64,000 bases of DNA, from positions 248,001-312,000 of the forward strand of contig JAJNNX010000057.1 of the NCBI GenBank assembly GCA_023159155.1, written 5' to 3'. The notes under the pieces are model-generated. The model worked only from the letters and a program-made list of their open reading frames with translations. It did not search any database and was not told the DNA's origin. Of the stretch, positions 1-47,868 are shown one piece after another. Position 1 is the stretch's first letter, and every line of letters starts with the position of its first letter. The stretch comes from Ustulina deusta (lineage: Eukaryota > Ascomycota > Sordariomycetes > Xylariales > Xylariaceae). The translations under genes were made by a program, and so were the position numbers.

Positions 1-3000
1 ACCCGCCGAGTTATCACCACAAGATCCGGGATTAAGCTATTGAAGTCGTTCCTTGGCTTCTTCATTACCTACATCCTCTGTCTTATTCCTGCCGTGCGAG
101 TGCGATTGGGCCGCTATGCTTATATCATGGTTATATCCGCTATCCTCAACCACCCGGGACGAACAGTCGGAGCTCAGGTCGATGGGGCAGTGCTTACTAT
201 CTTCGGCACTGCGACGGGCCTTGGTTGGGGCGCCTTTGGGTTATGGGTTTCTATTGTTACGGCCACGGCGCGAGTCGGCTTTGGCGCCATCCTCGCGCTT
301 TTCCTTTTCATCCTCATATTTATTAGTGCCTGTCTCCGCTCCTACTATATTCGGACATATCAGTTTGTCATATGTGCTGGTATTGCCATTTCCTACACAT
401 GCTTAGCAGAAATATCAAGCACTGAAGTCTCCTGGTTCAAATTGGTTTCTTACGGAATCCCCTGGCTCATTGGGCAAGCCGTTTCTCTGGTTGTATGCAG
501 TATTGTCGCTCCTGATGCAGGGTCCCGTCCACTAGGTCAGTCCGTTAGAGTCTTTTATGCCCCTTTTTGACTCGTCTTGGGAGCACAATTTACCTTATTA
601 GGGTGTTTCTACTCTTATTCCTACTGCAAACTCCCGAAACCCTTTCCATCTGTTACCATAGATGACAATTACTGACTCCAGATTCTTAAATAGCCGTAGG
701 CATTCACCAAATTTTTAGTATCATGGTGGTAAGCGTCTGCAGTCTTTGTTTCCGTTAAATGCCTGCTAAGTTACCTAGGCTGGAATTCCACCTGTCCAAG
801 ATTCGGTGAGAATGCGGAGACGACTAGCTCAGGCATTCGTGAGCATGTCTCAAGTCCACAGAGATCTGGCAATCGACTTTTCCATCACCACTTTAAGCCC
901 GAAAGACGTTTTGATTCTTCGCAATTCAGTTCAAGCTGTGATTCGGACGCTTTGTAAGAATTTCTTGAGTCAAAATCCCCATTTCCTGTTCGTTTTCAAT
1001 AGTACCAGGACTTCATTTCGGATCGTCGTGTCTTTTAAGCCTTCCGCGGTCTTAAACACACATAGAACGCGCTTAAAGAGGATTGCTGACCATGCATGTT
1101 GCAGTAAGTTTGAAGACGGAAACTAGACTGCTCGAGCTTCCGACAAGCGATGCGCCCGATAGGGATAGCTCATCTCGTCAGCAGCTTCCAGAATTTATCA
1201 TTGAGATGGATAAGACCCCAGGAGCCTCCGGCCAGACTGAGGAAGAGGAAATCACGAAATTCGTCATTGGAAGTTTGGCAACACCCACAGAGAATCTATC
1301 GGATTCAATGAAGTTAGTTTTACAAAGTTGCGACGCCGCCCTAATGGATACGTGTGGACATCGGCGTTATTTAGGACCCCCATACAACATATCAAGTGAT
1401 ATTCATACCGCTTTGGTTGATCTACGAAAGCAGATCACTACGTTCAACACTCGACAAGAAGAGGTCTTAGCTAGCAACAGGCTACCTCATACCTGTTCTA
1501 GGTTCCCCGAGGTTGTCAAAATCTTTGCGTTTTGCCTTTCACTCCATCAAGCGGCTAGTTCAATTGAATCTCTCGCGACTCAACTGAACGAGTTACGGCA
1601 GAGACAGCCAAAATATCCACACTTCCACTTACCTTGCTATCCGTTCTGGAAAGCCATCCATCGAACTAATGCTCAGGTACGCCATGATAGAGGCGGTGTC
1701 ACAGCTGGTAAGATGGGATCAATCGTACGTAACATTAGATACACTGACCATAGTAGGTTCGTATTTCAGGAGTTTCAAAGATATTGCAAAGATAATCAAT
1801 AAGATCCAGTCTCGAGATTTCCAGCCAGTTGCACAAAAAGGGGCAACAGACACTCCATTAGCCACAACGACAGCCGATGACCTCAACAACAGCTCTAAGT
1901 CTAGAGAAGCCCACTTCCGGTACCAAATTTGGGCTGTTCTTCACCGGATGCAGGGCTTTGAGACACGGTTTGGGCTTAAGACGGCTATAGTCACCTCCCT
2001 TCTCGCCCTGCCTGCGTATTTGGTAGAAAGCCATCCTTGGTGGAATCACTATGACGCATGGTGGGGTGTTGTGATGGGTTGGTTGATAATGGGTCCCCGG
2101 TAAGATCTCAGTTACCTGTGGTGATATCGAACTGACAAAGCTTTCTGTAGAACGGGCGGAAATGTTCAGGATCTCTTTGCTAGAGCATTTTGCGCGGTTC
2201 TTGGCTCTCTGTGGGCTGGTCTATCGTATGCGGCTGGAAATGGAAACCCATATGTCATCGCAGTGTTTGCTTCAATCTTCGTATGTATTAGTCGAAGTCC
2301 TATTCCAGCCTCTTTCCCTATCCTACATCTTGTAGAAAATAAGCGCAAGTCAAGCTCCTGGATAAACCAGAGCTGGATACTTGTATATTTATTTCAATTT
2401 GCACTATTTCGTCCTAGAAGACAGCTGCTTACTCGTTTGACAGATGCTCCCTATGATGTACAGGTACACTCAAAGTACACATCCTGTAAGCAAAATAGGA
2501 AACCTGCATTGAGCTATTACTAAGAACATTACAGAGGTCAGGGATGGTCGGTTGTATTTCTTTTACAGTTGTTTCCCTATCAGAGGTGATTGAAAAAGGC
2601 AGACCATCGGTAGCAGATATCGCGGCAACCAGGGGCGCCTCAATGCTGTTTGGGGTTGTTGCGTCAGTTATTGTGAACTGGATTCTTTGGCCATTTGTGG
2701 CTCGCCATGACCTACGCAAGGGGCTAGCATTGATGATTTTCAACTGCAGCATAGTTTACAGGAGTTAGTAACCTTAGCCCCTTTTCTAACACCGCAGCGT
2801 CTCATTGTATATGGCAGGTATTATATCCCAATACGCATACTATGAAGACGGTGATGCACCTACAGAACAGGATATTAGAGCCTCTGAAATCATCGAAGGA
2901 CGGTTGCGGGAAGGATTCGTCAGACTCAGGCAACTGCTGGTAGAGAGCCCTATGAGTTAACTACAGGCATGGATTAAGTGCTAACTATCCTAGGGGTTGA

Positions 3001-3769
3001 CGCGCCATGAGATCCGCTTACGAGCTCCCTTCGATCCATTACCATACTCGGCGCTCATTAGGTCTGTAATTTAGAGCTCTCGTCCCTCTTTCTGATGTGC
3101 CCCAAGAGCAAGAGTTGCCTAACTACGGAGTTCTGTCCCCGACGCTCTTGCAAGCCTACTGAACTCTAGATTTTCTTTGATAATAAATGGCAATTACTGA
3201 CTCCTGGTTACTATGTAGTTCATGTGAGCAGTTCTTCGACCACATTGTCGCGGTACGGCAATCTTCCTTATTCTACCACCCTCACTTCGTTGGAGATGAT
3301 TCCGAAGCAGCTATGGACCTCCTTGGCCACAGGCGCGATCAAATTGCAACGGTCTTAACTAATCTGTACGTTCTGTCGGGAGCACTGCGCGCCGACAGAC
3401 CAGTCCCGGTGAGTTATCCCCCCTCAGATCGCCTTTTTCGGTATGATTAACTGTACATTCCCCAGAAATACCTTCCTAGCTCCGCTGTCGCCAGGAAGCG
3501 TTTACTAGACCGACTTTTTGAGCTTGAAAGAGAATATGCTGCTAGTGCAAAACACAGTAATAAAGAGACACAGCGAGAGCTTGGATTGAGACAAATTTAT
3601 AGTTACTCGTACAACGACAGTCTGACGGGATGCGTAGAGCAGGTCAAGGAGCTTGAGAAGTATACCAAAATAATCGTTGGCGAGCAAGGGTAAGTTGACC
3701 TGCTCATATATGAGGCCTTTGCTTATGGGGATTAGGTTCGATTGTGATTTCGCCATGCTGAGTGAATGA
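1..3769 (+). CDS. ArAE_2 / DUF2421 family membrane transporter, 5' end outside the window
   Basis: Multi-spanning membrane protein of the fungal aromatic-acid-exporter-like family (ArAE_2 N-terminal domain plus DUF2421), related to yeast Bre4. Exons read as <1-535, 694-728, 779-953, 1105-1707, 1757-2099, 2151-2280, 2425-2463, 2535-2763, 2818-2939, 2994-3061, 3219-3408, 3466-3689 and 3736-3769; the sum is 2727 bases, exactly 909 codons. The first exon encodes about five hydrophobic segments; a cytosolic stretch with RRKLA/SLKTETR-like family motifs follows; a second membrane block starts near 1970 (TGGNVQDL, GNGNPYV); the tail holds IYSYSYNDSLTGC and VGEQG, ending FAMLSE. Hydrophobic segments come in two blocks, as in the family. 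It first looks like scattered fragments, but all pieces join in phase, so I call it intact. Two of its 12 introns (536-693, 3062-3218) are introner-like elements. The substrate cannot be told. Confidence 0.85.
536..693 (+). repeat. Introner-like element, copy 1 (intron of the ArAE_2 transporter)
   Basis: A 158-bp phase-1 intron beginning GTCAG and ending TTAAATAG. It aligns without gaps over its full length with the 158-bp intron at 46844-47001; I count 127 matching positions. A 22-base run in the middle, from position 624, is identical, as is the branch-site block around AATTACTGACTC at 668-679. The flanking exons are unrelated to those of the other copy, so the homology is confined to the intron. 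Confidence 0.9.
3062..3218 (+). repeat. Introner-like element, copy 2 (intron of the ArAE_2 transporter)
   Basis: A 157-bp phase-2 intron from GTCTG to ATGTAG. It shares with the copies at 536 and 46844 the blocks GAGCA-GAGTTGCCT in the first half and AATGGCAATTACTGACTC at the branch site, in the same order and at the same distances from the splice sites. It is more diverged than those two are from each other. Splicing joins AG|T TCA TGT GAG in phase. Confidence 0.8.
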
Positions 3770-4359
3770 TGTCTAGACGTTCCACAAACGTTAAAAATGA
3801 ATATGTCTTTTAGAAGCAAAGTACCTATATCAATGATGTTTCTCGAGCTGCCTGTTAGGATATATGAGTTTATACATGAATGTATTTACAAGGTGTAGTT
3901 GCGAGCCCCGTAATAAGTAGCTATTTCCGCTGGACTTCGTAACAGTCTATTATTCTCCTTGTTAATGCTTGTTTTAAATGTTTAGCATCCGCGTTGCTGA
4001 TCTAGTAGTCAATTGCCATGAGTCTATTTCATGCCAAGGTTCGGTATTTGTTTTCCGCTCCACATCACTACTTCGGATCTCACCGCCATCCCCGCGATCT
4101 ACCGCAGTCTTCATGTCTCGGTGCGGTTTTGCAAGTTTAATCCTCGCACGTGCTTGTAAGTTGCGTTGGTTTTCGTTGGCCTAACTAGACCGCCATCTAC
4201 AACTGGAAGACCCTCAAGTAATGGTGAGGAGACATGCGTATTTCCTTCCTTATCGTGAAGTACCACGACTATTCTGGCCAAATATATGCAAGCCCGTCTG
4301 AATACAGCTTGTTCCCTATACGACGTTATCCTAATATCATTTCACCAGATAATATTATC
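3770..4359. other. Intergenic region between transporter and histidine phosphatase
   Basis: AT-rich 3' flank of the transporter and putative promoter of the phosphatase gene. The open frame at 3978-4184 has no family resemblance and no coding bias that I can see. No other feature was recognised. Confidence 0.5.
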
Positions 4360-5637
4360 ATGTTGGCAACCTTAATCTTTGCATTGCTTTCACTCAGCGC
4401 GACCCCACTGGCCCGAGAATTGGATTGGCCAGGTAAATGGGATCAACATCATAAGTCGACTATCAACTACACGACAATCAGTGGATTCTTCCTACAGGAC
4501 GATCCAACGACAGATCCTAAAACATTCGATTATGTGCGATCCCTCGCCAACTCCTGACACTGCACACTGTCATATCAATAACAATCTGCTAATGAGATGT
4601 TAGACCGCCGTGAACTATGGTCTCATCAATAGATCATATCCAACAGACAAAGGGTTCGACCTGTACGGGAAGAAAACTCAATGGCAGCGTTTTGAGTATT
4701 ACGTGGACAACCTAAACCGTAACGCCGACACGAACACGCAGTACAAAGTATTGTTCATGGCTAGGCACGGCGAGGGCTATCATAACACCGCAGAGAGTTA
4801 CTACGGAACTCCCGCTTGGAATGTAAGGTTTTTACAGGGCATTTACCCCCATACCCCATATGAGGATAATCATGAGTAGCAGTAGCAGTGCTGGGGTACT
4901 GAGGAATCACATAGTGTTACTGGGGCCCCTTAGACGGAAACGGCACGGTAGTCTGGAAAGACGCACGCCTAACAGACACCGGACTAGGGCAATGCACCAA
5001 AGCAAACGACTTCTGGAAATATGCGCTCGCGGTGGCGAAAATCCCGGCTCCGCAGACGTACTACAGCAGTCCGTTGACGCGCTCTGCGACGACGGCAAAC
5101 CTGACGTTCGCGGACCTCGATCTACCCGATACCCGCCCCTTCGCGCCGACCCTGAAGGAGTTGTTGAGAGAAGGGATATCGATACGCTCGTGCGACGAAC
5201 GCTCCAGTAAGGCGGCTCTCGCGAGGCTCCTCCCGGGCTTCAGGTTCGAGGACGGCTTTACCGAAACAGATCTGCTCTGGAGGGGCCGCGACGGCCAGGG
5301 CGAGACAGATGAGGCGCAGGCCCGGCGCGCAAAAACTGCCCTCGATGATATCTTTAGACACGATGCAAGCACTTGGGTTAGTATTACCACGCACTCGGGA
5401 CAGATCGCCACGGCGCTAAGGGTGCTGGGACACGGCGTGTTCAGTCTCTCGACGGGTCAGGCTATCCCCGTGTTAGTTCAGGCGAAAACGATTGCTGCTC
5501 TGCCCAGTACGACTTTGGCTTCTTTTACACCCGAGGCTACGTGCTTTGCGCCGCCCGTCACGAGCATCCAGGGCCAAGGGTGTGTGTGCTCGAGTGTGGC
5601 TTCTGTCTCCCCAACCCCCTCTCTTTTAGATGGGTGA
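4360..5637 (+). CDS. Secreted histidine phosphatase (phosphoglycerate-mutase-like fold)
   Basis: Histidine-phosphatase-superfamily enzyme of 371 residues, close to fungal PMU1/phosphoglycerate-mutase-like proteins; it would hydrolyse a phosphate ester, substrate unknown. Exons 4360-4533, 4604-4822 and 4915-5637 total 372 codons. The start ATG is followed by a hydrophobic signal peptide ending near LSATPLARE, which suggests secretion or entry to the ER. The phosphohistidine motif appears as MARHGEGYHN and the second catalytic histidine as ITTHSGQ; the C-terminal half has PLTRSATTA, typical of the fold. Introns are short (70 and 92 bp) with CTAAT/CTGAG-like branch sites. The C-terminal 50 residues are rich in Cys, Ser and Pro and look low-complexity. 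A start at 4234 in another frame was rejected because it lacks the signal peptide and family match. Confidence 0.85.
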
Positions 5638-7183
5638 TGCAACATTGGACCACATCGAGGCAAATAGCGTGACTATAATGCCATTGTGCAACTAATGTGC
5701 CCAGATTTTTAAGGATAGCTTCGATGATTGATCCCCTGATCCCACTTCCTTACACAACCTCAAGCCTCCTTCTCTTGTCCCGAAATAAAAAGGAGCCAGT
5801 TAACCTGGGATATCATTGTCACCCTAATGACCCGTGATCAACTTCCCGTGTGACTAGATCCCAACATCTTGGAAAGTGTCCAAAAGACGGATACATTATC
5901 TTTCCGATCTATATATTGATTCTGCACCGAATATTACCGCATTCGGTAAATCAGGTTGCGTTACACTACATAAATCAATCTTGGTCACGCATCGTCATCT
6001 CATCCTGCAATCTATGTATACTTTAGTATTAAGGACTTCGATCTGGGCAGAGAGAGAGGAGGGCACCCCTAGCCTACATCAAGCGAAGAAACAATAAATA
6101 GGCAATCGAGTAGATGCGTGCCCAGTTTCGCCTGAACTGGGTCGGGGTCTTTAACGTTCATGTGGTATGCCAAGTCCCGATATGAACGTATAGGTAGGTA
6201 TAGTAATAGTAGTACATGCAATGGAGACTCTGCCCTAGCGATATCGACTGAATACCTACCTGCCTAGACTAGGTCGTGTAAGCGGGAAATGCCACCCTCG
6301 GCTGCAGCTCTCACACCAGCTTTTCCACTTGTCAGACATTATCTAATGTGTTATTCTCGATTCATAATCCACCGACTATCGACACCCAGAAGCGCGGATG
6401 AAACCTCCCGCTCTGTGGCTGCGCGGGAGCCAATGAGTTCTAGTCTAGAAATCGATACTTGCGTCTGTCGGAGAGAGGAGTTATAATTATTACATAAGCT
6501 GGCTTTGCTGTTCGCTATCCTCTGGGGACGAGAAGAATGAAAACAATCAAAATAATATGAACGCTTTCTCTTAGATCTTTCCCTTGTTAGTGCCCAGGCT
6601 ACAACGAATCTTTCATTTGAATATGGGACTTACCCATTTATTCGCGGTTATGGATCTAGGCTGCTGCTTCCATAGGCGCTGAATAGGTCCCTACAAAGAA
6701 GCGTGCGAGCTTCCGTAGAAGATAGCCAACCTGATCAACCATGACAGTACGCTATGGTAAGGGCCGTAACTAAACTGGGATCGTTTTGGTCATCAACACG
6801 TCATCTTAGCAGCTGAGGCGGTAGGCGCTGCTGTTGAACCAAGTTGCTATTTTGATATGTGCCTCTCAAATTCCAAGCCCAAGGAGTTCAAATGTGAGTG
6901 GGGGTTGAAGAAGAATCTGGTTTTACGAGACGGGACGTCCCGTTGTAGTGGGTTTGACGGTAATAGTAGTGCGCCCGAGTATGGAGATTACATGTTTTGA
7001 TGTCAGTTCTGTAAGATGTATTATTCATGGAGATATGTCGGCCATGTCTGATATCTGGCCAGGCCAGCCTGTTATCCAGGGGAGGGGTAAACAAGGTAGG
7101 ATATATGATCGTGACCGGAGAACTTTTCTATCATGGATTGACACGTTGTAGACCCAGAAAGGTATGCTAGTCTAGCTCATTAC
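5638..7183. other. Intergenic region with TAGGTA-type motifs
   Basis: 1.5 kb with only short spurious frames. It contains ATAGGTAGGTATAG near 6189 and TACCTACCTGCC near 6254, members of the dispersed palindromic motif seen throughout the window. It probably holds the phosphatase terminator and the promoter of the FAD oxidase. No gene or RNA was recognised. Confidence 0.5.
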
Positions 7184-9547
7184 ATGGCTCATTATACTAC
7201 AATGATGCACTTTTCTATAATCGCTGGTATCCTTACCTTCATATCAAGGGCCAATTGTATCAACTTCCCTTTCGAAGCAACGGTGCTCGAAGACGACGAC
7301 ATTGGCAACTTCTCTGCCATTGCTTTCGGTAATAGGGGGACAGCAAGCCCGGTATATGACGGACCGGAATGCAAGGTCTACCCAGGCACGGCGACATGGC
7401 CGCTCGAAGTAGAGTGGGCGCAACTGAACAGTACTCTGGACGGCGCTTTACTCAAGCCTGTTCCCGCCGCTGCTGTATGTTATAACGGCCCTTACGAGGA
7501 CACGAATCAGTGCAACTTCCTGCTACGCAACACGAGCTCATCACGCTTCTACATCAATGATCCACTCACAGTTCTCGCCATGTGGCCTGAGGGCGACACA
7601 TGCTATGCCTCGGCCAGCACCACGGGCCTAAACTGCACGCAGGGCGGGTTCCCTAGTTACGTTGTTAATGTAACGACGGTGAAGCAGATCCAGGCCGCGG
7701 TGAACTTCGCACGGAACAAGAATCTCAGACTGGTTGTCAAGTGAGCCGAAAGCGTTTCTTTGGGTGTTGATTTTTTGAAAGTACTACAGGATACAACCGC
7801 GGATGAACTCGGTGGCTAATCGTCGTAGGAATACTGGCCACGACTTCTTCGGACGTTCCACGGGATTCGGTGCCCTGGGCATTTGGACACATTGGTTGAA
7901 GGACTTTGAATTTCTGCCTGAGTATAGTATTGGTGAGTATAGGGGTATGGCTGCCCGAGTTGGCGCAGGACTTGAGAGTTGGGAGCTGTTCACATATATG
8001 GAAAAGCACAATATAACAGTCCTGGTTGCTGGTCCCTATACCGTCGGCGCGTTCGGGGGGTGGATAACAGGTGGTGGGCACTCAGCGCTAGCCTCAACCT
8101 ATGGCATGGGAGCTGATCAAGTGTTGTCGCTGGGTGTTGTTACTGCTGACGGGCAGTTCGTGACGGCGGATGCGAATCAAAATACCGACCTATTCTTCGC
8201 ACTGCGCGGAGGTGGCGGGAGTGAGTGTGGTTTTTTTCTAAACAAGCTCACATCTGTTGCCTGATGACGGACTAATGAAAGCGTAAACCATCTAGGCACA
8301 TATGGCATTGTGACCTCAGCCATAGTAAAAGCCCATCCCACGACTTCAGTCCTAAGCTCCTCGCTTAGGTTTTCCGTCCAACCGGCCACAAACTCTCCCG
8401 CCAACGTCACAGAATCGTTCTGGGCGGCTTTCGATGCATACCACAAGTTTGGGCTAGATATCGTCGACAACGGGGGTACGGCATACAGCTCGGTGTCACG
8501 CATCGCACCTCAATCAGGTGGCAATGCTCCGCCGGGAGCTAGTTTCTCGGCTACTATCGAGATGCCGGGGATGTCAGCCACGCAGCTCACTGCGTTCGTA
8601 AAACCATTGTACGACCGCATTGCAGCCCTCGGGATCAACTTCCCTGCTTCCAGCATCACACAAGCCTCTAATTGGCAAGATGTAAGCCATGGCGTAGGAG
8701 ACATGCCGGGCAGTGGCGGACGTTTTGCCAGTCGAATCTTCCCTCGAGTGAGCTTCGAGAACCCGAGCCGCTTCGCTGTGACACAGAAGGCCATTCGGAA
8801 TACTGTTGAGGCTGGATATCTTTTCCATGGAATTAACATGGCACCCAGGTCAGTACTCTGGAGCCCCCGATGCCTTCTCCTAGGTTGCTTAATCAGGGGA
8901 TTTCACTCCTGGGACTCTGTAACTGCCCGAAACACTCGACGTTATTTACAATAGATGGTCGAATTACTGACTCTATATTCCTACGTAGCCTCAATGTTGC
9001 AGGATACCCCGGCCGCGACAGCGCTGTGAACCCGGCATTCCGCACTGGTGGTGAGTTATATCGAGAGCTAACTTTCTTTCTTATCTGGACCATGCCGAGA
9101 ACAGAGGGCCGCCGGCTCTGGATAGACCCATGTCTCAAGAGTCCTACATATCCCCAAAACATTCATAGATTCCGGTTAGAAGTGATATCGCTGACATTTG
9201 ATATTGCAGTCATGCATGCCGACGTCTTTGAGGGTACGAATTTGCGGGGTCTTTCAGCGCAAGGTGTACGCGATGCACACGCGACATTCAACGTGTATAT
9301 GAATCAGATCCGACAGGCTACGCCCGAGGGTGGATCGTATATTAACGAAGGCGACATTGAGGAACCAGAGTGGCAGAAAGCGTTCTTTGGCAACAACTAT
9401 GCGAGGCTGGTGGAGGTGAAGACGAGCTGGGATCCTTGGAACTTGTTTTACACTCCTGTTGGTGTCGGGAGCGAGAGTTGGGTTGTCCGGACTGTTGATC
9501 ATGGTCTGCCGACCCAGGATGGACCGCTCTGTCGAGCCGACTTGTGA
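7184..9547 (+). CDS. Secreted FAD-linked oxidoreductase (PCMH + BBE domains), isoamyl-alcohol-oxidase-like
   Basis: Vanillyl-alcohol-oxidase-superfamily enzyme, about 630 residues; oxidises an alcohol or sugar-like substrate with O2. Exons 7184-7740, 7829-8220, 8296-8848, 8989-9050 and 9210-9547 total 634 codons. A signal peptide follows the starts at 7184, 7202 or 7205 (MMHFSIIAGIL); 7202/7205 gives the tidier one. The FAD-binding PCMH domain shows KNTGHDFFGRSTGFGALGIW, where the His is the expected covalent-FAD site, and FGGWITGGGHSALA; the second flavinylation Cys of bicovalent enzymes is not seen. The C-terminal BBE domain ends WDPWNLFYTPVGVGSESW. Several N-x-S/T sites fit a secreted glycoprotein. 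Intron 8849-8988 is an introner-like element; intron 9051-9209 is also unusually long but not clearly related. The isoamyl alcohol oxidase assignment rests on the WTH motif near residue 200. Confidence 0.87.
8849..8988 (+). repeat. Introner-like element, copy 3 (intron of the FAD oxidase)
   Basis: A 140-bp phase-2 intron from GTCAGT to ACGTAG. Its 3' half, ACTGCCCGAAAC then GAATTACTGACTCTA, matches the corresponding blocks of copies 1 and 6; the 5' part GTCAGT-CTGGAG also matches. It is about 18 bp shorter than copies 1 and 6, mainly through loss in the middle. Splicing gives AG|C CTC AAT GTT in frame with the conserved GYPGRD region. Confidence 0.8.
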
Positions 9548-35124: not shown

Positions 35125-35961
35125 TGTTGTCATGAACCCTTTGATCTATGATTCTCTCACTCTCCAAGCATCCCCGTCTCTTGTAGACACATGGTCATAT
35201 TTGCATATCAGGAGTTTTATCTGATGGGTTATGCTTTTTCTATTTCTATTGAACGGAGTTAAGGTTTCATGAGGCTACAGGCGCGGAATGGGAGCGTGTA
35301 ATCTGTTTATTGGCATCTGGCTCTTGCTATTTTCACTGGTCTAGGAGGGGCGAGGGGCTTTGCGCATGTATGACTATTTCTGGGGGCATGCGTTTGGAGA
35401 TACCCGAAGGGTGGTATGTCGCATCATGAACGGCCCATGTTGTTTAACGGGCGTAGAATGAGTTGTTCCTGCTAGAAGAGTCATCTCGTTAGACTTTGAT
35501 TAATGGATGAAGACGAGACCATGTTTCGAGGAGCATGAAGAGTACTAGGCAACATGCACAGGATGCGCAGAGTTAGACCTTGCGATCCGCTCTTAACTTC
35601 GCTGGATAACAAAAAAAAAGAAAAAAGGCGCAACCTGGAAAGATAAAAGGCAAAGAATTTCGGGTGTTCCAATTTAGAAAGAAATACAGAAGAAATCTCC
35701 AATCAAATGCTTACTTTCGTCATGCTCTTCTCTATTTGCCGCTAGTCTGCCGACAACACGGGAATTACTGAGATCCAGAATCAATTGGCAAGATCTTGCA
35801 CGTGGCGCTTATGAGATGTAATTTAGGTACAATTACAGGTTAGAAGTACAGATACACACGTCCTCACAAGGACCTGCCACAGCTCTTCTCCTGGCTTCGA
35901 TTCAATGTCGAGTACTGTGATCAGACCTAGTAGGGATAGATGAGCTGATGGATGAGCTTGT
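35125..35961. other. Convergent intergenic region
   Basis: 3' flanks of the convergent GDS1-like and OMS1-like genes. A-rich stretch at 35609-35628. No gene recognised; the frame at 35481-35702 (-) is unsupported. Confidence 0.45.
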
Positions 35962-37401: not shown

Positions 37402-38139
37402 CGTGACCCGTCAGGCTAGCTGCCGCTGGCCGAGTTCTCGCCTCGCCGAATCTTCCTGACTCACTTGCTGACTCACTCAAGGCAGCGACGAATTGATCTA
37501 GCCGTTTCTCACCTGCAGTTACAGGGTGGTGAGGATCTACGCAATGAGCCTGTCTGATTCTCGCCCCGCATTCATCGATTCATCATACAAAGACTCGATG
37601 CGCAGCCAACAACAGGCTCGGCGATCTGCCTTCAGATGAAAGCCTATTGGAGAGTCTCCCAGGCTGAGGGCTGAATGGACGTCAGTCGCCAGGGGTTAAA
37701 TTAGCCAATGGTGGAGGCAGAGATAGGATATGGAGCCTGTGACGCAAGGCGAGTGACCATCCCCTTACGTCGTTGTCGTTGATGATGGGGATTTGGAGAG
37801 TCCCGCAGAGTTTCGGAGTAGGCATTGTAGATCTGGCACAGTGCAATAGATTTTTGGGGGGATATTGATACAGTGTATGTTGGTCTGGTCTCTGACTGTA
37901 TCACTCGCACCGCCACTTCTGTTACCTCAAGCCACAGCTGTTTGTTTAATGCACTTAAGAGCCATATTTATATAAACTATACAATGTTTCGCTTTAATAG
38001 GTACTCACCTTAGGTAGGTACTACCTGGTAATTGCCTTACAGCCTGCAGTGACGCATCTCCTGGCACCGTTCCTTTATCCAGAGACGCGACTCAATTCCC
38101 TAGGTCTTTAGCTGCGGTACCGCCGACAATATTGGAGAG
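37402..38139. other. Divergent promoter region of OMS1-like and IMPACT-domain genes
   Basis: Holds a TATATTTATATAAAC-like TATA region at about 37964-37980 and a CTTAGGTAGGTACTACC motif near 38010. No gene recognised. Confidence 0.5.
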
Positions 38140-39909
38140 ATGTCGGCTCAACAGGATCTTCAAGATCTTATTCGGCTGATGACCGTAGGAATGAAAGTCC
38201 CAATCAAAGATGCCTTATCACGCGTGAAGAGTCTCCAGGCCAACAACCTCCGAAGCGTAAAGCAAATAGCGGAATGTCCGCTCTCGGAGGTCCAGTCAGC
38301 TGTATCCGATTCCAAGGCTGCGAGATCTCTTCAGAATGCATGCAAAGCCCGCATGAAGAACCCAACCGTACCATTGGCCAGCAAGAGGACCGGCTCTGAT
38401 CTCACGGCGGATGCGAAGCGGTTGAAGCTCGCCGGCGATGCAGGATATCTTGGCCGGCTCGATCCCGTACAGCCCCGCGAATATGAAGCATCGCTTGAAC
38501 TCTCCGTCGAGACAGATGAGCAACTCATTGCTAATACTACACTGTTAACAAACAGGGCACCCCTCGTCCTGGCTTTCGCTGTTGAGCTCTTGCGATATAC
38601 GATGCCAGAACAACCTCCTTCTAGTTGTTGGAGCCTGGCTCAAGCTGTAGTCAGCGCCAATTCGAGAAGTAAAGCCGTCTCTCTGGGCCTTGAAAAGGGC
38701 CTCAGTGCTGACGACGAAGGCTGGGGTCATGGCCAGCCGAGGGTTAAAGTGATGGGTCGAGAAGTTGCAGTTTTAAAAAGAGGTGGCTATGTATGGAAGG
38801 GAGAAGAAGAAGTTGCTGAGATTGGTGAAATTGCTTTCGACGTAAAAAATTCACCAACCGCAACTGAGACTAGCAACAGTAGTAAGGCTCCAGATATGAG
38901 TGACAACACGACCAGCCACACAGCTAGATCGTGGTCGACTAGTCAACCTATCACTTTGAAGCAATCGACATTTGTTGTGCGGGCTATCGCTCTTACCGAA
39001 CCGTCTCAACGCCAGTCGGTTTTGCAATCACTCTTTGCTGCCATTCCATCTCTGCAGTCAGCAACACACAATGCGTGGGCGTATCGGGTTAAGGTGGCTA
39101 CCAATTTATTTAATGCTACTACGATTAAAGAGGAGTCTTTCGATGACGGAGAGAGCGGATGTGGATCCTTCTTACTCAAGAATATGCAAGAAATGAATGC
39201 CGTTGACACATTGGTTCTAATGACGCGCTGGTACGGTGGAATCATGCTTGGACCCGACCGATGGAGGATTATGCGTAATTGCCTTAGGGAGTAGGTTCTC
39301 GCATATACTCCAACCCCCCAGGACCGGTACGTCATAACTAACCTGGGGACTTGTAGTGCATTATCAGAACGTCTTCGCATCACAGGGGAACAAGTTACAC
39401 TAGGAGGAGAGGCACTATGGGGCTTAGACCTCGAAGCTATGAAGAATAAAGCCGGCACAGCTGGTTCCGCATCCAGTAGATCGTATGAGGCTGGTGTCGT
39501 CGGCATGCCTATACATCGGCCAGAAGCAGCCAAGGCATATCTCCTCAAAAGCTTTGCCACACGAATCGAACTGTCCCAAGATGAAGGAAGTAGCGTCCCA
39601 GGTCAGAAGAGCGAACAAGACGGGCAGCCAACCCCCCCAAAGGCCAACGCGTCAAAAGTGACCCCGAAAAGGAAGACTGTCAAAGCCATGGAACTCGAGA
39701 AGGAAGAAAATGTTGCCAGACTTCTTGGCGCCATTAGGCTTCTGTGCGAAAGCTGGGCAGGTCCTTTGAGCGCCAATGAGCTTGATCGCCGTGCGTGGAA
39801 TTGGTACGTGGCTGTCCGGCCCGAAGTCGAGAGTGGTCCTTCTGGCTGGGGTGCCAAAGGACAACTTAAACTAGCTGACATCCTCGCACTGAGGCGGAAA
39901 GAGGCATGA
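38140..39909 (+). CDS. IMPACT/UPF0029-domain protein with N-terminal helix-hairpin-helix-like segment
   Basis: Protein of 567 residues; exons 38140-39290 and 39357-39909, 568 codons. The IMPACT N-terminal fold is recognised by QSTFVVRAIALTEPSQR, then HNAWAYRV and above all MTRWYGGIMLGPDRWRIMRN, the family's W-(F/Y)-GG-(I/V)-x-LGPDR signature. In Yih1/IMPACT this domain accompanies a Gcn1-binding RWD domain; I see no RWD here. Instead residues about 8-70 are helical with VKSLQANNLRSVKQIAE and SDSKAARSLQNACKARM, reminiscent of a helix-hairpin-helix repeat. After the domain comes a basic Lys/Pro-rich linker (NASKVTPKRKTVKAMELEKE) and a Trp-rich helical tail. The intron is short (66 bp). The precise role is unknown; stress translation control is a family inference. 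Confidence 0.75.
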
Positions 39910-40329
39910 CTTACAACTTTTATCCTCGGCAAAACCACATAGGATAATTCCCGCCACGCTAAAAGACTCAACCGTCTAAAGCGGGGATAACAGACCTTGA
40001 GAGTAGGCTTCACTTGATAGCACTCGATCACAACGTCTGAGCAAAAGCTGTTCCCTCCGTGCAGGCGAATTTATACTTATATATACTAGTGTTTATTTGA
40101 AACCTAGAGGGCATTTGTTGGGACATACTACATACACGAGGTCTATTTGATAGGCCCTCGTTCTACTTCGAGAGTCGATGATTTGGAAGCGAGAGCATTA
40201 TCCAACTTCCGGCTGATCGACGGGATCCAGTCGAAGTCGACATATTTGATCCGCTATTTATTGAAGATTCCCTGGCAGAATCCGCTGTGCTTGCCATGCT
40301 TGGCCGTCTCAACGATTTGTCGCTCAGCA

Positions 40330-40499
40330 CTACAAGAATCGGAGTCAATTAGCACCATTTCCAGCATGACCTATGAGGGTTTAGAAAGGATGGGAAGCCT
40401 CTAGGGCATAAATTTCTGCCTGGAATGAACTTTGATACTCAAAGTCGCCATGGCAAAAAGAAAATCGCTCGAAAGAGTGCTTACACTTCTTTATCTCAC
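40330..40499 (-). repeat. Introner-like element, copy 4 (last intron of the ankyrin gene)
   Basis: A 170-bp phase-1 intron on the minus strand, from GTGAGAT to CTTGTAG. The 3' end reads AATGGTGCTAATTGACTCC then GATTCTTGTAG, matching AATGGCAATTACTGACTCTAGATTCTTGAATAG of copy 6 with small gaps; upstream ATGCCCTAGAGG resembles TTGCCTCATTAGAGG. The 5' half is not alignable by eye. Splicing joins GCA AGA G|TG CTG AGC in frame. Confidence 0.6.
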
Positions 40500-41553
40500 C
40501 TCTTGCGAGCCCTGCATTGTTTGCAGCTTCGAATGCTGTTCTACCATTTCCATCACGCAATCCAGTGTCGGCCCCATGTTCCAGCAATAGTTTAACAAGA
40601 TGAATAGTTGCCCTTGATTGGGCGACCGCATCGATTGCGCTTACCAACGGAATAAACTTCCCAGGGCCATCTCTGTTGGGGTTGGCACCTTGTGACAGTA
40701 AATACGCAGCCACTGCAGTATGTAGTGTCAGTGTTTATTGAAATATTGGTCTCTAGAAGATGAATAGTTCTGGTTTTGAAACCAGCACACGGTCTATCAT
40801 CCCAAGGACCTTATCCTGCGAGGGGAAAGAAGTTAGTAAGGAATAAGATACTCACTCTTTTCGTTTCCACTTTCGCACGCCATATAGAGAGCTGTCTTGC
40901 CAAAGTAGTCAATGCGATCGATTAGGTCAGGGCACCGATTCAATATCAATTCAGCGACCTGGACGCCACCAGACCTTCCTTGACATCTATGCAAAGGAGA
41001 CCTCTATTTTTGGTCAACAACGCCGACGTTGGCGGCCTTATCCAGCAGTACAGCGCACACCCGCTTGTTACGAGTGCTTGCCGCGAGGTGCATAGGTGTG
41101 GATCCGGAGCTATCCCGCTGTTCGGCTTGTGGAATGTTCGATAGCATACTCTGCAACACTTCAAGGTTTTCATGCTGAATCGCTCGGTGAATCGGGGCGT
41201 TTCCCGTCTGAGGATCGCAAACGTTAAATCCAAAATGTGGCGAATGAACATCAAAGCCCTGTTCTATAGACCACCGGTATGGACTACCTAGGTCGTTGTC
41301 CTCACACACGCTCGTTCTTGGTGATGGTTGAGGTGATAGTCCATGGTCCTCGTAGGATTCAGCCGGCAATTCCTCCTCAAGCCAGCTCCGAATACCCCGT
41401 GCCTCGTCGATTAATTGGAGTGCTTGTAGACTTTTGATAAGCATCTCTGCCGAGTCTATTATAAGACTTTTGCGTCGAGGGTTTGCCCTTGACCGACCCA
41501 TAAATGCATTTTTTAGAAATTTTCGCGATCTGAGAAAGTTTCCTTGCCTTACA

Positions 41554-41707
41554 CTGTAATGCGGAGTCAGTAGGTCAGGTCAAACACGATTTCCGTTGCA
41601 GTATTGAGAGAGAAAGAGCTTTCCAATAAGGTAGCAGCTCAAAGAGAGGCATTTGCTTTCCCTTGGGCATCACCAAGACGTGCAGAATGACTAAACGGGT
41701 TACTCAC
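41554..41707 (-). repeat. Introner-like element, copy 5 (intron of the ankyrin gene)
   Basis: A 154-bp phase-2 intron on the minus strand from GTGAGTAA to ATTACAG. Its middle contains TACCTTATTGG, a T/C stretch, then ATACTGCAACGGAAATCG, in the order TACCTTATTAGG, T/C stretch, CTACTGCAAAC, GAAACC of copy 1; CTACTGACTCCG lies at the branch site. Splicing gives KLGNL|CVRQGNF, which continues the family sequence. Confidence 0.65.
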
Positions 41708-42819
41708 CAGAGGTTCCCAAGCTTGTGATATAATCTCCATTGCCGGTCAGTGTCGTCTGTTTCTATTCGCTCCCTTTCATGGTCTAACAACTCTTCTATG
41801 ACCTTTTTCGCCTCCTTGTCTGTCTCTGTAGTATCACAGTGGAAGAGGATATCCGCAAGCTTCTCCTCCATATCAATCAACTTTGAGGCACTACTGGCAT
41901 CACCGTCCTGATTACCCTGCTCGGAGAGTCCGTCATCCAGGAGCTTGCGTCTTCTAATGCCACGCCGTTGATATTCCGCAGCCTGAAAAAAATATCTCAC
42001 TTTGCATGAGCTGGCGTACGATTTTCTGATTATTTTCGAGAGTGAGTTTCATTACTTTGCAACTCACTTCATCGAGTTCCTCAGGCTCGGAGTCAGAAAT
42101 GTCGTCATCGAAAGTTGGTAGGGTTGTGCTGCTTGTAGAGTTGTGCAGCGAGACGGTCTGGCGCTCATCGGTTGGTTCATCATAAGGTATGGAGAGGGAT
42201 ACTGCCGCAGCGATCTCGCTGTCAGGAGTTAGCAATCTTCATTTACAGTAGAGATGTTGAGCATGTAGGAGAGCGAGTGACGATAGGGACTCCTGGTTAG
42301 GCCATTCCTGCTCCCAAGACCTGTCTTGAAAGAAAAAAACAAAACATCCGAGACCATACTCAGCTGTTTCACGCCATTCTCGTATCTCCTTGGCGAGAAA
42401 ACTTCTCGCTTCCCCATCGGCTGGGGGCATATCCAGTTGCGGGGTTGATATCAATGGGAGCTCTCGGATATTCCTGGTTCTTGTCTCTGTACGACCTGAG
42501 AATATCTCCGTTGCGCGGATATCTCGATTGATTCTTTGCACTTCGGCAAGGATCATTTCCTGCGACTGTCGATATATCCATAACTCGCCAAGAGAGAGCG
42601 TCGACAAGCTCAATTGAAGGATCCTTGTGTATGAGGTGATATGGTGTACGATTTCCTTCAGACGTTCCCCCTTCAACGATATCTGGATGCTAAGTTTGAG
42701 GTTTTGAAGAGGTGCTGTTCACAGCCTTGCCCATACGCCACCGGTAAGCCATCAATGAAATATGCATTAAAAGCCGGATGAGAATAGCTTAGTGCAGATC
42801 GTAGCGTCCCTGCCGCCAT

Positions 42820-43207
42820 ATTGAGATGCTGCAAATCCGTTTGCTACTCAAGCCTGCTTGCTGATTATTCTAGCGAAAACCATAAATTTTCTTTTACTGT
42901 TTCGAAGTAAGTCACATCAACGTTTAGTATCTTCTGCGTGACCGCCTTCTTATAAACTCGGCCAGTAACGATGATAAGTCAACGGGGCTCTTCTACTAGC
43001 CACGCCTTACATGTCCGTGAGCATAATATACCCTCTCGTATCGAGTTAGACGTCAGAGCGGCGAGCGTCTCAGCAGCTCGAGATTCGTACCAAAACCAAA
43101 GGAGATCGAAGACGCAGCAACCACCAAGCAGTTATCGAAAGCCCGTTAGGTATATTATTCTTAGCTCTCTCTGCTGTAGCCGTGTCATTCTCGCTCACGC
43201 TGCCCAG
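42820..43207. other. Region between the two broken genes
   Basis: Head-to-head spacer plus the unresolved 5' exon(s) of the sugar porter. From 42971 an ATG opens a polar, basic stretch, and in another frame VIESPLAHL joins across a GTATAT...CCCAG intron to TDEELERDAREF at 43208; an in-frame stop upstream means a further intron or lesion must be assumed. Confidence 0.35.
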
Positions 43208-45960
43208 CTCATCTCACGGACGAGGAACTCGAAAGAGACGCCCGCGAATTCCAAAGGCAATTTCTCCCACGTGTCGAAGTAGAGCGGCTGCTGAGAGCTG
43301 TCCAGGTAGCAAAGTATATCAGAATCTATGATGCAGTTGCGCGATCCGAAGATGCCCATGCAGCCAAGGATCTGTCAGTACAGCTAACAGGGGAAGAGAA
43401 GATCGCACTGAAGAAGGAAAAAGACTCTCTGCCATCCGAGCCCACGATGCTTATCGTAGTTCTCACCGTGTCACTCGCGGCGTTTCTCCAAGGATTTGTC
43501 CAGTCCTCGATCAATGGAGCGTCCCTTTACGCAAGAGAATTTGGACTTGATACTGTGAAGCCCGTCGAGGAAATGGGCGGCTCGACTCCGAAGCCGCCAA
43601 CATTGAACGATTGGAAGCTTGGCGCCGTCAATGCCTCGCCATTTCTGTTCGCCGCTCTAGTGGGTTGCTGGCTTGCCTTACCCATCAACGAACGTGTTGG
43701 TCGGCGAGGCGCGATGGCAATCGCTGCGTGTTTGATATTTGCCAGCTCACTAGGCGCTGCTGCCTGCAGCAACTGGCAGCAGCTCTTCGGGGTGCGCGTC
43801 TTAAATGGAATAGGTCAGTTCAGTACGGAGACATCCCTTTCAAACCCGAACCCTTCGACAAGGCCGATTTTACTTGCCCTGCGACTGGCTGACGATCTAA
43901 TGGAAGGTATGGGTATCAAGGCAGTCAGCACACCTATATTGGCTTCCGAAACTGCAGTTGGGTATTGGCGAGGCACATCAATTCTTGCCTGGCAACTTTG
44001 GTGAGATGCGCGATCGCCGTCTAAGAAGGGACATTAACACTAGCAGGGTCGCTTTCGGCATTGCCATAGGATTCGCATTCAACCTAATTTTCTACACTGC
44101 TAGAGACTCTCGGACAATTAAGCAACTAATCTTAGGAGCCCCCCTCGTGCCGTCGATCTTTCTTCTAGCCAGCCTCTGTTTTTGCGCTGAAAGTCCTCGT
44201 TATTATATGCGGCGACAGAGCGCCCATTTCGACCCTGAAAAGGCGTATGCTATTCTGGTCAGACTGAGAGGCGGAGAGGTAATCAACTCAATAAACTTGA
44301 CTAGCACGTGAGGGATTACCGGGCTAACTATTCCACTTCAGTTCCTAGCACTCCGGGATATCTATTTGATATATAAGTCTGTCCAACAAGAAGAACAAGC
44401 CATTCAGTTAGATATGGAAACCGAAAGCTGTGACGTGCCTCGAGGCCTCGTTGCACATATTAGGGCTTATTTAACTCAATACAAGTAGCTCTTTACTCAG
44501 AGACGCCTTAGGAACGCTCTGCAGCTCGATAGTTTCCCTAGCCCAGCAGCTCTGTGGGAGTAAGTTTATTGATTATGAGAACGCACCTTTACTTCCTCGA
44601 AGATATTCTAACGGCCTCATAGTAAACGTGTTTGCTTTCTATTCCGGTAAGCGCCAATCCCAGCTTGCGTTTCGCTCAACATCGATTCGGGAGCTTGTGG
44701 GTTAAGGATGTTCACTTGCCGAGACCCCAAGGCTGGCTTGGTATTGCTCTGCTTGTCCCACAGGATGCTTAATCGATTTTCTCTGCCTTCATTGCTTAAC
44801 CGTCCCTTTACTTACACATGGCGTAGGACCTCTGCTCAATGGACTATTGCATGATAAAAAAGGCGAATTGGAGCCGATGCTCTATAGCCTGGGATACGGT
44901 ATGTCGCACTCGAAAAAGTCGGGCAACTCTATATGGCCGCCATACTTACGAGCCTAAGGCGCCGTCAACTTCCTTTTTGGCCTTCCAGCTATCAGGACCA
45001 TTGACACCCTTGGCCGTCGTAAATGGCTTGTGCTCACATTACCCCTTATGTGCCTCTTCATGACCGCAGCGGCACTGCCGACTCTAATCCCCGAAGAAAC
45101 GGACGCTCGAGGTGGAGTCGTCGCTCTCTTCGTCTTCCGTCAGTCATATATCCAAATCAGCATGTCTAGGATACGAACTGACAATTTTCATAGTTTTTGC
45201 TGCAGCATATTCCCCAGGGCTAGGTACATGCTGCCTTCAAGACAGCGTCGGAGCAGCGTGCTAACTTTGACCAGGTCCTATTCCTTTTACCCTAGCGTCT
45301 GAAAGGTTACTCGCTACCTCCAGCCCCAGAAACGCAGACGCTAACTGATACGCAGCTTTCCATTATCACATCGTGAAGCAGTGAGTCGTCAATCGGAATC
45401 GAGAAGTACTTCTAATCACATATTCTTTGATCAGGGATGCGCTTTCGCTGTTGCCACGAATTTCCTTTTCGCCGGACTTCTATCAATTTTTTCCCCAAGG
45501 TTGCATTGCCGATGAAGCACCCTATTAGACAGCATTCGCTAATAGCCATTGTAGTATTTACGCCGGGCTTCATGATGGCGGGACACTAGGGCTCTTCGCT
45601 GGCCTCAATCTCGTTGCGTTCGCTCTCATTTTCCTCCTTGTCGAGGAGACCAAACGCCGGTCTCTCGAGGATCTGAATGCCATCTTTGCCGTCAGAAAGA
45701 GTAGATTCACACGGTATCAGGTCATGCAATACCTCCCCTGGTTCTTCCGACGCTATATCCTGGGCCGTGATGTTCCCAGGCCTGAGCTGTATCTCGATCT
45801 CATCTGGGGTAATCACGACGACTCTGCTGACCACCACGGTCAAGGTGGTGGCACAATTGAAGCTGGGGGCTATGGCAAGTCGGACAGGGGTGATATTTGG
45901 GGGGGGGGGGGGGAGGGGGGGGGGGACAGGGCCTGTTTAATCCAACCTTGCCATTTGCTC
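43208..45960 (+). pseudogene. Broken MFS sugar-porter gene (nonsense codon plus frameshift in one exon)
   Basis: Sugar-porter-family MFS gene whose exons still splice in phase: 43208-43813, 43907-44000, 44047-44278, 44342-44559, 44623-44646, 44827-44898, 44959-45138, 45194-45223, 45275-45305, 45356-45380, 45435-45499 and 45555 onward. Signatures: LPINERVGRRGAMAI, AESPRYYMRR, TIDTLGRRKW, FLLVEETKRRSLEDL then QYLPWFFRRY. In exon 44342-44559 TAG at 44486-44488 replaces the residue between QYK and LFTQRR (CAG to TAG is one C-to-T change), and near 44515-44521 one extra base shifts the frame; downstream SSIVSLAQQLCG needs the other frame. The final exon runs into a poly-G tract at 45899-45925, and its end is undefined. 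I judge it non-functional as a full transporter. Confidence 0.75.
45899..45925 (+). repeat. Poly-G tract
   Basis: Fifteen G, one A, then eleven G on the plus strand. It lies at the 3' end of the broken sugar-porter gene and would encode a Gly run if translated. Such a tract can form a G-quadruplex and is prone to length error in sequencing. Confidence 0.95.
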
Positions 45961-46693
45961 GGCCTCCTCACATGGACGTTAGGAGGGCGAGCGGTGAGGA
46001 TGACGACCATTGGTGAATTTAGCTACGTGTCATCAATCATGGAATCCATAAACATCTAAATTCGTGTATCATTTTGTCACCTATTTACTAGCTATTGTCT
46101 CTTTCCATCAAATCTAGTTCTGTGCTCTGTTCCATTCTACCGCAACAGTTAAAGGAAGCACTCAGGAGCGCACCTGTCAGATTTTCCGAAGCAATGCTCA
46201 TCGCTTCTCTTACTCCCCGCTCTAATTATAGTGCCCAGCCCAGGATAGTTAAGTCAAGCGTAGGATTCTCTGCGTAACGGAGTGTGGTTGCTCCGAAGGA
46301 TGCTAGTGGCGTTGTGGCTTAGCATGTGAATGCGATGGCGGTTGAACAACACGCCGAGCCACCACAAGCGCTTTAGGCAATAGACCAGATATTTATGCTG
46401 CTACCTAGACAAGGTGCTGTTCATTGTGCCGTATCCTCGTTTCAGCATGAGCCGTCGGCACAACCCCGACGACCAGCCCGTTCGTTCATCGCGATGTATG
46501 TGGATCAAGGCTGAGCGACGTCGAGCCTATTCACAACATCATGGCCGCTCCAATGTCTATAAGAGGCGGCCATGGTGTCTTCATTGACAGGTAGACTAAA
46601 CAGCATGACGACATAATAGAAAGACATACCCTGTTCTTAACTTGTTGATTGATACCTACCTCTGTAGAATTCCTCACTTCTCTCTCATCTACG
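45961..46693. other. Intergenic region upstream of the reductase gene
   Basis: No gene recognised. Likely holds the promoter of the gene starting at 46694; the frame at 46531-46770 (-) is antisense to its first exon and unsupported. Confidence 0.45.
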
Positions 46694-47868
46694 ATGGCTA
46701 CTCCTATCCGTAAAGTTGTCATTTCCGAGTTTGGCGACGTCTCTAAGGTCAATGTCGAGCAATCAAGCATCGACCCACCGAAGGCGGGCGAGATTCAGGT
46801 CGCTCCCATCTACTCTGGATTTTCAGGTGCCGACATTGGAATGGTGAGTCCGCTGGAGTCTTCTATGCCCCCGTTTAACATGTCTCGGGAGCACGAGTTG
46901 CCTCATTAGAGGTTTTCTACCCCTATTACCACTGCAAACTCCCGAAACCCTTTCTATTATATACCATGAATGGCAATTACTGACTCTAGATTCTTGAATA
47001 GCGCCGAGGACAGTATCCAATGCAGAGGAAAGCTCCGCTCACTCCCGGCTACTGCCTTGTCGGGCGAGCGAGAACAAACGGCGCCTATGTCAAAACTGGT
47101 GATCTGGTAGCTTGTTTGACGGTGTACGACGCCCAGGCAGAGCTAGTCAACCTGCCAGAGAAGCACCTTATCCGGGTGCCCAACGGCGTCACCCCAGAAG
47201 CAGCGACAGCCATCATGCTCGACTGGGCGACGGCATTCGGTCTAGTCGACAAGGCCAAGGTGACGAAAGGCCAGCGCGTCTTCATTCACGGCGTCAGCGG
47301 CGCCGTTGGCTATGCGACAATGAAGCTGTGCCAACTGCGGGGCGCCGTTGTCTACGGCACGGCATCGGAGCGGAACCACCAAGTTCTTCGAGAGCAAGGC
47401 GCCATGCCCTTCGTTTACACCAACAAGAACTGGATGAAGGAGATGCAGGATCTCGGGGGCGCCCATGTCGTCTTCGACCCTCTCGGCTCCGATAGTTGGG
47501 AGGAGTCTTACTCGATCCTGCCCCCCTGCAGCGGCGGCGACGAACAGGGCGTCCTCGTCGGATACGGCCAGAACCAGCAAGCGCTCACCGATGTCAAGCC
47601 GTCTGGAAACGCCGTCGTGCCTCTGACGAAACTCCTGCTCAAGAATGCTAAGATATTCTCGAACCGACGGACTTGTTTCTACTACATCTCGCGGGACGAC
47701 GCGTCGTTCGTGCCGAGCGTCGATACACTATTCGAGATGGCTAAGGATGGAAAGATAGACGTCGTCATAAAGAAGATCTGGGACATGGAGGATATCCAGA
47801 TGGCGCATCGAAGCTGGGCGACAGGTGTTGGAATCGGTTCTAATCTGATTCGCATCTCTGGGGCGTGA
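46694..47868 (+). CDS. MDR-family quinone reductase / zinc-less dehydrogenase
   Basis: Medium-chain dehydrogenase/reductase of 338 residues; probably reduces a quinone, enone or similar with NADPH. Exons 46694-46843 and 47002-47868, 339 codons. The GroES-like N-terminal half has FSGADIGM followed after splicing by QYPMQRKAPLTPGYCLVGR, typical of the zinc-less branch in which the catalytic Cys/His zinc ligands are absent. The Rossmann half carries the nucleotide motif FIHGVSGAVGYATMKLCQLR (A-x-x-G-x-x-G type) and GTASERNHQVLREQGA. The ending IQMAHRSWATG matches the family's A-H substrate-loop helix. The only intron is an introner-like element, so the intron was gained in a gene that otherwise has none. 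Catalytic substrate cannot be told from sequence. Confidence 0.85.
46844..47001 (+). repeat. Introner-like element, copy 6 (sole intron of the reductase gene)
   Basis: A 158-bp phase-0 intron from GTGAGT to TTGAATAG, the same length as copy 1 and identical at 127 of 158 ungapped positions by hand count. The conserved blocks are GGAGTCTT near the donor, GGGAGCAC, a 22-base block in the middle, and AATTACTGACTC at the branch site. Exon joining gives ATG|CGC CGA GGA in frame. Confidence 0.9.

Follow-up and report, generated by a model that had tools for sequence, protein, structure and literature searches.

Candidate introner-like spliceosomal introns in unrelated genes of the ascomycete Ustulina deusta

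Introduction

The origin of new spliceosomal introns is a long-standing question, and recent bursts of intron gain are shown by few lineages. Among the ascomycetes, introner-like elements are known in the Dothideomycetes, including Fulvia fulva, Dothistroma septosporum, Zymoseptoria tritici and others (PMC4457414), and introners have been surveyed across eukaryotes, Alternaria alternata among them (PMC9860276). Repeated stwintrons are known in the order Xylariales (PMC8469720; PMC12403724). Here we describe a family of similar introns in Ustulina deusta (Sordariomycetes, Xylariales, Xylariaceae), whose copies are, with high confidence, mobile spliceosomal introns of the introner-like kind. The family was noticed in a 64,000-nucleotide stretch of contig JAJNNX010000057.1 (assembly GCA_023159155.1, positions 248,001 to 312,000 of the forward strand), hereafter the window, and was followed through the 56.06-Mb assembly of 123 contigs. 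Copies elsewhere in the genome carry labels of the form L0xx and contigs carry C-numbers. At least three subfamilies (A, B, and C) were distinguished, and the window copies belong to A.

Results

Two plus-strand introns of the window, each 158 bp long, lie at 536-693 (GTCAGT...AATAG, with TAG as the preceding exon context) and at 46844-47001 (GTGAGT...AATAG, preceded by ATG). A preliminary description had reported that they match at 127 of 158 positions, ungapped from GT to AG, within unrelated exons; both statements stand, with the coordinates exact and the exons matching at 15 of 60 positions per side, which is chance level. The host gene of the first is presumably an aromatic-acid-exporter-like (ArAE_2) transporter, a name taken from that description, and the host gene of the second is a zinc-binding dehydrogenase, the product of which is 99% identical to a Ustulina deusta protein (runner-up, 83%). 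Two further plus-strand introns, at 3062-3218 (157 bp) and 8849-8988 (140 bp), had been named as relatives, and this kinship was borne out by a profile built from 20 A copies from outside the window, all four window copies being excluded. Expectation values (E) were 5.6e-48 for 46844-47001, 3.1e-43 for 536-693, 1.1e-15 for 3077-3208, and 1.3e-13 for 8849-8986. The same profile matched 42224-42325 on the minus strand (E 6.4e-8), within a decayed copy at 42222-42325 that corresponds approximately to profile positions 34-147, and found zero matches in the reversed window. When either 8849-8988 or 3062-3218 was used as the query of a genome-wide search, only the query itself was retrieved; hence, these two copies are too diverged for the genome search tool. 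The gene around 8849-8988 encodes a berberine-bridge-type C-terminal (BBE) domain by Pfam, and excision of the intron leaves a sense frame open for 449 nt on one side and 450 nt on the other.

That the two 158-bp introns might be an isolated pair had been set beforehand as a refuting test. Results showed that at least 90 distinct copies can be tabulated in the genome, i.e., 46 A, 31 B, and 13 C. With 536-693 as query, 32 genome matches were obtained, itself included, and 15 of them cover query bases 1-158. Overlapping sets were obtained with a B copy (40 scored out of 44 candidates), the A consensus (40 out of 78), and a C copy (36 out of 36); the counts are lower bounds, the A-consensus search having scored 40 of its 78 candidates. 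The tabulation omits L089 and L090 (duplicates of L085) as well as L065, L069, L070, L024, L038, and C93:115879, while candidates L088 and L102, absent from the printed profile results, are uncounted. For L028, L032, L075, L078, L081, and L091, the 3' end is misplaced, and it is open for nine copies; their 5' context and an approximate divergence were used. Subfamily B is the best preserved, with a mean pairwise identity of 93% among its 27 two-ended copies, a top pair at 98%, and a copy that differs from the consensus at 1 of 157 positions. Mean identity is 73% among 24 A copies and 64% between A and B. Twenty 9.9-kb stretches picked for holding a copy yielded a single extra intact copy, the second one of L012, which was already known from BLAST. 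Since such stretches are nearly free of extra intact copies, the four copies spread over 46 kb of the window form a local cluster. Short, weak profile matches in L016, L025, and L027 (E 1e-4 to 0.13) may be remnants; four other profiles, run against 262,020 bases of reversed sequence as a control, gave zero matches.

Several observations concern individual copies. Five introners lie within ~80 kb of one contig (window 536-47001 together with G000:C77:215932-216110), a higher density than that of the other stretches sampled. Two subfamily A introners, L012:4497-4658 and L012:5041-5195, are situated ~380 bp apart on the minus strand, and the exons joined over the upstream one match zinc carboxypeptidase (Peptidase_M14); the pair probably represents two gains within one gene. 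An old introner with the same printed flanks is found three times (L085, L089, and L090, contigs C7 and C121): one small contig carries it on each strand, and a second contig carries the third occurrence. By its flanks, this is a segmental duplication or an assembly artefact. In L023, L024, L034, L082, L064, and L025, the intron is lengthened by internal simple repeats (T/C-rich, ATT, poly-C or poly-G). Finally, L063:545-660 is a B copy that matches query bases 1-116 alone, its 3' part with the splice acceptor being unmatched.

The likeness among copies begins and ends at the splice sites. GT and AG were invariant across 51 aligned copies, which were delimited by us; L078, in the larger set, begins with AT instead of GT. 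The frame, flank, and duplication tests were performed on 25 A and 27 B copies, and on no C copy. Over all pairs within each of these two sets, the flanks had a mean identity of 25-27% and a maximum of 47%. Spill-over of similarity into the exons, as gene conversion would leave it, had been proposed as a test, and with flanks at this level the likeness is confined to the intron.

Removal of the intron from GT to AG restores the reading frame. In the A copies, the open stretch over the junction averaged 593 nt after canonical excision; with 1 or 2 extra exon bases removed, the average fell to 424 and 455 nt, and the corresponding figures for B were 573 vs. 537 and 474 nt. Canonical excision gave the longest or tied longest of the three alternatives in 22/25 A and 19/27 B copies, and the sense frame then exceeded the antisense frame in 25/25 A and 21/27 B copies. 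Protein alignments of individual genes pointed the same way. The product of the L049 gene aligns gap-free across the junction with 7m3k, and that of L031 does so at the junction with bacterial formyltetrahydrofolate deformylases (3lou). Eight Xylariales proteins are also gap-free at the L031 junction, one of them being identical to the L031 product (a U. deusta protein at 100%; the runner-up has 98%). Twelve proteins are gap-free at the junction of the L020 gene. In addition, protein P0241, encoded on a 3229-base transcript-like contig, spans the L020 junction as a single frame of 591 amino acids, with 100% identity across the 96% of the L020 query that aligned, and also reads through an apparent second intron upstream of the introner; the unspliced L020 stretch has stops in all three frames. 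The contig, the source label of which is 'lgn', looks like what a transcript would give and supports splicing of the L020 copy. For L049, L031, L020, and the frame-tested copies, the predicted products indicate that insertion into coding sequence leaves the protein unchanged.

Host genes are spread over different Pfam families. When joined exons of the B copies were scanned against Pfam, in the sense direction only, matches were obtained in 23/27 and crossed the junction in 19/27. The scans were run in batches (10/10, 7/10, then 6/7 B copies with a match), L041 and L046 of the last batch having already been in the second. Judged by this homology, B copies lie in sense orientation within coding sequence wherever a decision was permitted. 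The 300-nt flanks of B hosts are richer in G+C (57% vs. 51%, P 0.01). Presence and absence of the intron were compared in one gene, the L042 transporter, using distant paralogues from the same genome: at 28-38% identity, these read through the insertion point without a stop (e.g., C1:1990575 over residues 6-342 and C91:1245563 over residues 9-258).

No target-site duplication was found at the junctions of the 25 A and 27 B copies (k = 2 to 8). The upstream 3-mer equals the downstream 3-mer in 1/25 A and 0/27 B copies, and a 3-mer match with the last 3 bases of the intron occurs in 3/25 A and 2/27 B copies; none of the three junction comparisons revealed a shared stretch of ≥5 bases. In 16/25 A copies, the AG ahead of the intron is the same as the AG that ends it, but three bases are shared in only 3/25. 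A genome search allowing ≤3 mismatches showed no longer parent element with B ends, with controls at 0. The B 3' end has 27 matches, every one a previously identified copy, and the 32 matches to the B 5' end comprise the 27 known B copies, 4 A copies, and one unclassified match, C93:115879.

The A and B consensus sequences have in common an exact 8-bp inverted repeat between their first and last 25 nt, with one arm, CTGGAGTC, starting at intron base 10 and the other, GACTCCAG, situated 11-12 bases before the intron end. Shuffled consensus sequences attained an 8-bp repeat in 15/5000 (A) and 9/5000 (B) cases. Individual copies carry an exact end-to-end inverted repeat of ≥8 bp in 16/27 B and 3/25 A cases, vs. 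2/200 control 158-mers. In the window, the arms of copy 536-693 are located at 545-552 (TTAGAGTC) and 674-681 (GACTCCAG, overlapping the branch-site-like CTGAC), as defined from sequence and alignment, and those of copy 46844-47001 at 46853-46860 (CTGGAGTC) and 46982-46989 (GACTCTAG, with one G-U pair), all on the plus strand. In the minimum-energy fold of a young B copy, CUGGAGUC pairs with GACUCCAG and GUUA with UAAC; the GUUA is the extreme 5' end and the UAAC stands just ahead of the final AG, which adds 4 more pairs.

The exon bases that precede the intron differ among the subfamilies. B is preceded by TA, TG or CA in 27/31 copies (background ~15%, P 2e-18) and by AG in just 2/31, whereas AG precedes A in 32/46 and C in 11/13 copies (AG context, B vs. 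the rest, P 1e-9). A G stands directly before the intron in 46/46 A and 12/13 C copies, and the base at -1 is A in 19/31 B copies. Context in B also varies with codon phase among the 24 copies to which we assigned one: in phase 0, TA or TG occurs in 13/16 and CA in none, and in phases 1 and 2, CA occurs in 6/8. A separate observation is the rarity of G at -3 in B (0/27 in one set and 2/31 in the larger set). The codon that precedes the insertion is His in 8/8 proteins for L031, Met in 3/3 for 46844-47001, and Glu in 11/12 for L020, with Asp once. For these three genes, the base at -2 was most likely present before the intron, a point in favour of choice at insertion.

Age was also considered as the cause of the exon context and was rejected as confounded by subfamily. 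Across 90 copies, those flanked by AG are more diverged from the consensus (median 0.149 vs. 0.057, P 2e-8), a pattern suggestive of sites that change, or are filtered, in the direction of AG; at 0.06-0.11 divergence, however, TA, TG or CA is present in 5/5 B, 4/8 A, and 0/6 C copies. The age trend inside A is weak (P 0.034 for TA/TG/CA vs. the rest and 0.055 for AG vs. the rest), and some differential survival may operate within A.

Discussion

The multi-copy family, its boundaries at splice sites, its unrelated host genes, and the outcome of the refuting tests uphold the introner interpretation offered in the preliminary description. Under this interpretation, a unit of ~150-160 bp, equipped with both splice sites and a branch-site-like motif of its own, would enter coding exons seamlessly in the sense direction. 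It would then be spliced out, leaving the protein unchanged, and would decay over time into an ordinary-looking intron. Copying may proceed via the excised intron RNA or be coupled to transcription. The near-terminal stem could bring both intron ends together; the copy might then be inserted through reverse splicing, or be captured at a break, before being converted into DNA. The sense coding location where decidable, the lack of duplication, the exact boundaries, and the missing parent element all fit a route that runs through RNA or is tied to transcription. Of the routes considered it is the likeliest, and taken by itself we regard its chances as about even; the introner identity and such a mechanism, loosely held as one proposition, seem fairly probable.

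The main competing possibility is that the copies are non-autonomous DNA transposons, i.e., introners resembling miniature inverted-repeat transposable elements (MITE-like), moved by a transposase, the ends of which happen to coincide with splice sites. The inverted repeat CTGGAGTC/GACTCCAG of A and B, to which B adds GTTA/TAAC near its ends, would suit such an element, as would the B target set, since TA, TG, and CA form a self-complementary set of steps (27/31 vs. ~15% expected, P 2e-18); the majority of non-ascomycete introners likewise resemble DNA transposons (PMC9860276). Against this, the 25 A and 27 B copies lack a target-site duplication, and no longer element with B ends was found in the genome within 3 mismatches. 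Moreover, 23/27 B copies have a sense coding match, with none identified as intergenic or antisense and 4 undecided. If antisense exonic copies were purged, ≥23/27 sense-exonic copies would have P 4e-8, 7e-6, and 6e-4 at assumed coding fractions of 0.5, 0.6, and 0.7, respectively. We consider movement as a DNA transposon unlikely, though with an appreciable chance of being correct. Much less probable is a reading of the copies as [D1,2] stwintrons (nested introns with 5'-GGT), as found in Hypoxylaceae and Xylariaceae. The G ahead of GT in 46/46 A and 12/13 C copies would agree with it, and published stwintrons also have near-terminal inverted repeats without target-site duplication (PMC12403724). 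However, removal of the extra G reduces the mean open frame of the 25 A copies from 593 to 424 nt, the -1 base is A in 19/31 B copies, protein alignments agree with canonical excision, and the genome shows no enrichment of the published 5' repeat plus donor (10 matches vs. 8 in the control). Since a GGT start with removal of its first G is contradicted by the frame test, the stwintron reading was rejected.

Two further explanations have almost no probability in our estimation. Duplication or gene conversion of host genes could produce alike introns, and the L085/L089/L090 triplet with identical printed flanks is a case in kind, but among the 25 A and 27 B copies the flanks show no relationship (mean identity 25-27%, maximum 47%), and the hosts belong to different Pfam families. 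Fungal small nucleolar RNAs (snoRNAs) can reside in introns, and a conserved non-coding RNA of this type might likewise keep introns similar. It is just as improbable here: the window has no Rfam match at gathering score, L030, L040, and L068 have none with E ≤0.1, and the likeness extends to both splice sites.

A number of observations weigh against the introner interpretation or its RNA-linked route. Sense bias could arise solely by selection against antisense exonic insertions, and it is weaker evidence if the genome is mostly coding; open frames of 80-150 codons or more span 0.52-0.74 of the window, so that the weaker P values above also apply. A DNA-transposon route stays viable in view of the inverted repeat and of the preference for TA/TG/CA. 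Among B copies, L045, L046, L055, and L060 had no Pfam match; in L040, L051, L057, and L061 the match stops short of the junction, and in L044 it passes the junction by merely 2 residues. Matches of L041, L052, and L061 are under the curated cut-off (the three families being TauD, APH, and glycosyl hydrolase 28), and the four B copies whose 3' end is unplaced (L059, L062, L063, and L066) fall outside the Pfam classification. The antisense frame was longer than the sense frame in 6/27 B copies. In a codon-usage test on 180-nt flanks, 45/74 copies were sense and in frame on both sides and 29/74 gave another outcome, with L041 antisense on both sides; on flanks of this length, the orientation test is too noisy. 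No U. deusta protein appears by name among the matches listed for the L020 gene. As for the stem, the repeat of C is 6 bp and not significant (334/5000 shuffles), compensatory changes and paired cells were no higher than in shuffles, RNAalifold predicted zero pairs on the same alignment, and whole-fold z-scores were modest (-2.0 and -1.2). Since covariation is lacking, the stem is not maintained at each site after insertion; if it is important, it acts, we conjecture, in copying.

The difference in exon context could mean that the insertion machinery itself selects its exon target and that sister subfamilies have different preferences, TA/TG/CA and not AG in B, and AG in A and C. We advance this tentatively and regard it as a possibility rather than an expectation. 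If true, the bases before an intron would record how it arrived instead of subsequent selection for splicing, a point relevant to the long-running protosplice-site dispute. Here, intact and decaying copies of three related subfamilies, which differ in divergence and clearly in exon context, coexist in one genome. Such a system permits reverse splicing and DNA transposition to be tested directly against each other, and it allows one to ask if the AG before the intron is chosen at insertion or selected later.

Compared with described systems, the family resembles the introner-like elements of Dothideomycetes in comprising many similar spliceosomal introns in unrelated genes of a filamentous ascomycete, with several families per genome and some copies near-identical and others decayed (PMC4457414). 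Unlike those elements, it is hosted by a member of the Sordariomycetes, order Xylariales, and the two are set apart by description and not by sequence; a subfamily-specific exon context such as that found here is not met in the available part of that paper. Introners of the DNA-transposon type (Micromonas, Symbiodinium) are marked by a target-site duplication and by terminal inverted repeats. The 25 A and 27 B copies have no such duplication; as for the repeats, A and B carry the 8-bp near-terminal one, with 4 further pairs in the fold of a B copy, and that of C is not significant. The surveyed ascomycete families are, like ours, introns alike from end to end without target-site duplications, but that survey describes them as lacking inverted repeats as well (PMC9860276), unlike A and B with their short near-terminal repeat. 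Terms beginning with xylari- or sordario- are absent from the main text of that survey, and a literature search by titles and abstract openings found no description of canonical introners in this species.

The stwintrons of Xylariales are closer by host, occurring in the same order and partly in the same family, and they too form tens of similar copies at new positions, inserted seamlessly on the coding strand without target-site duplication (PMC12403724). They share a near-terminal inverted repeat, called NTIRE-10 there, which could hold the intron ends together; in the view of the authors of that work, the excised RNA may be protected by the stem (PMC12403724). Their main class consists of nested introns, unlike the copies described here, although the cropped sister introns reported beside them are canonical, as our copies are (PMC12403724). 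The repeats are unrelated in sequence, being CUGGAGUC/GACUCCAG here and GUAUAAAAAC/GUUUUUAUGU in the stwintrons (PMC12403724), and at the 5' end GUAUAAAAAC is absent from the aligned copies and not enriched in the genome. In addition, insertion sites here are non-random (TA/TG/CA for B, AG for A and C), whereas no nucleotide bias beside stwintrons is reported in PMC12403724. The introns of U. deusta are a new family of the ascomycete introner kind that resembles the Xylariales stwintrons in behaviour and not in sequence, and canonical introners now stand beside the known stwintrons in the same fungal order.

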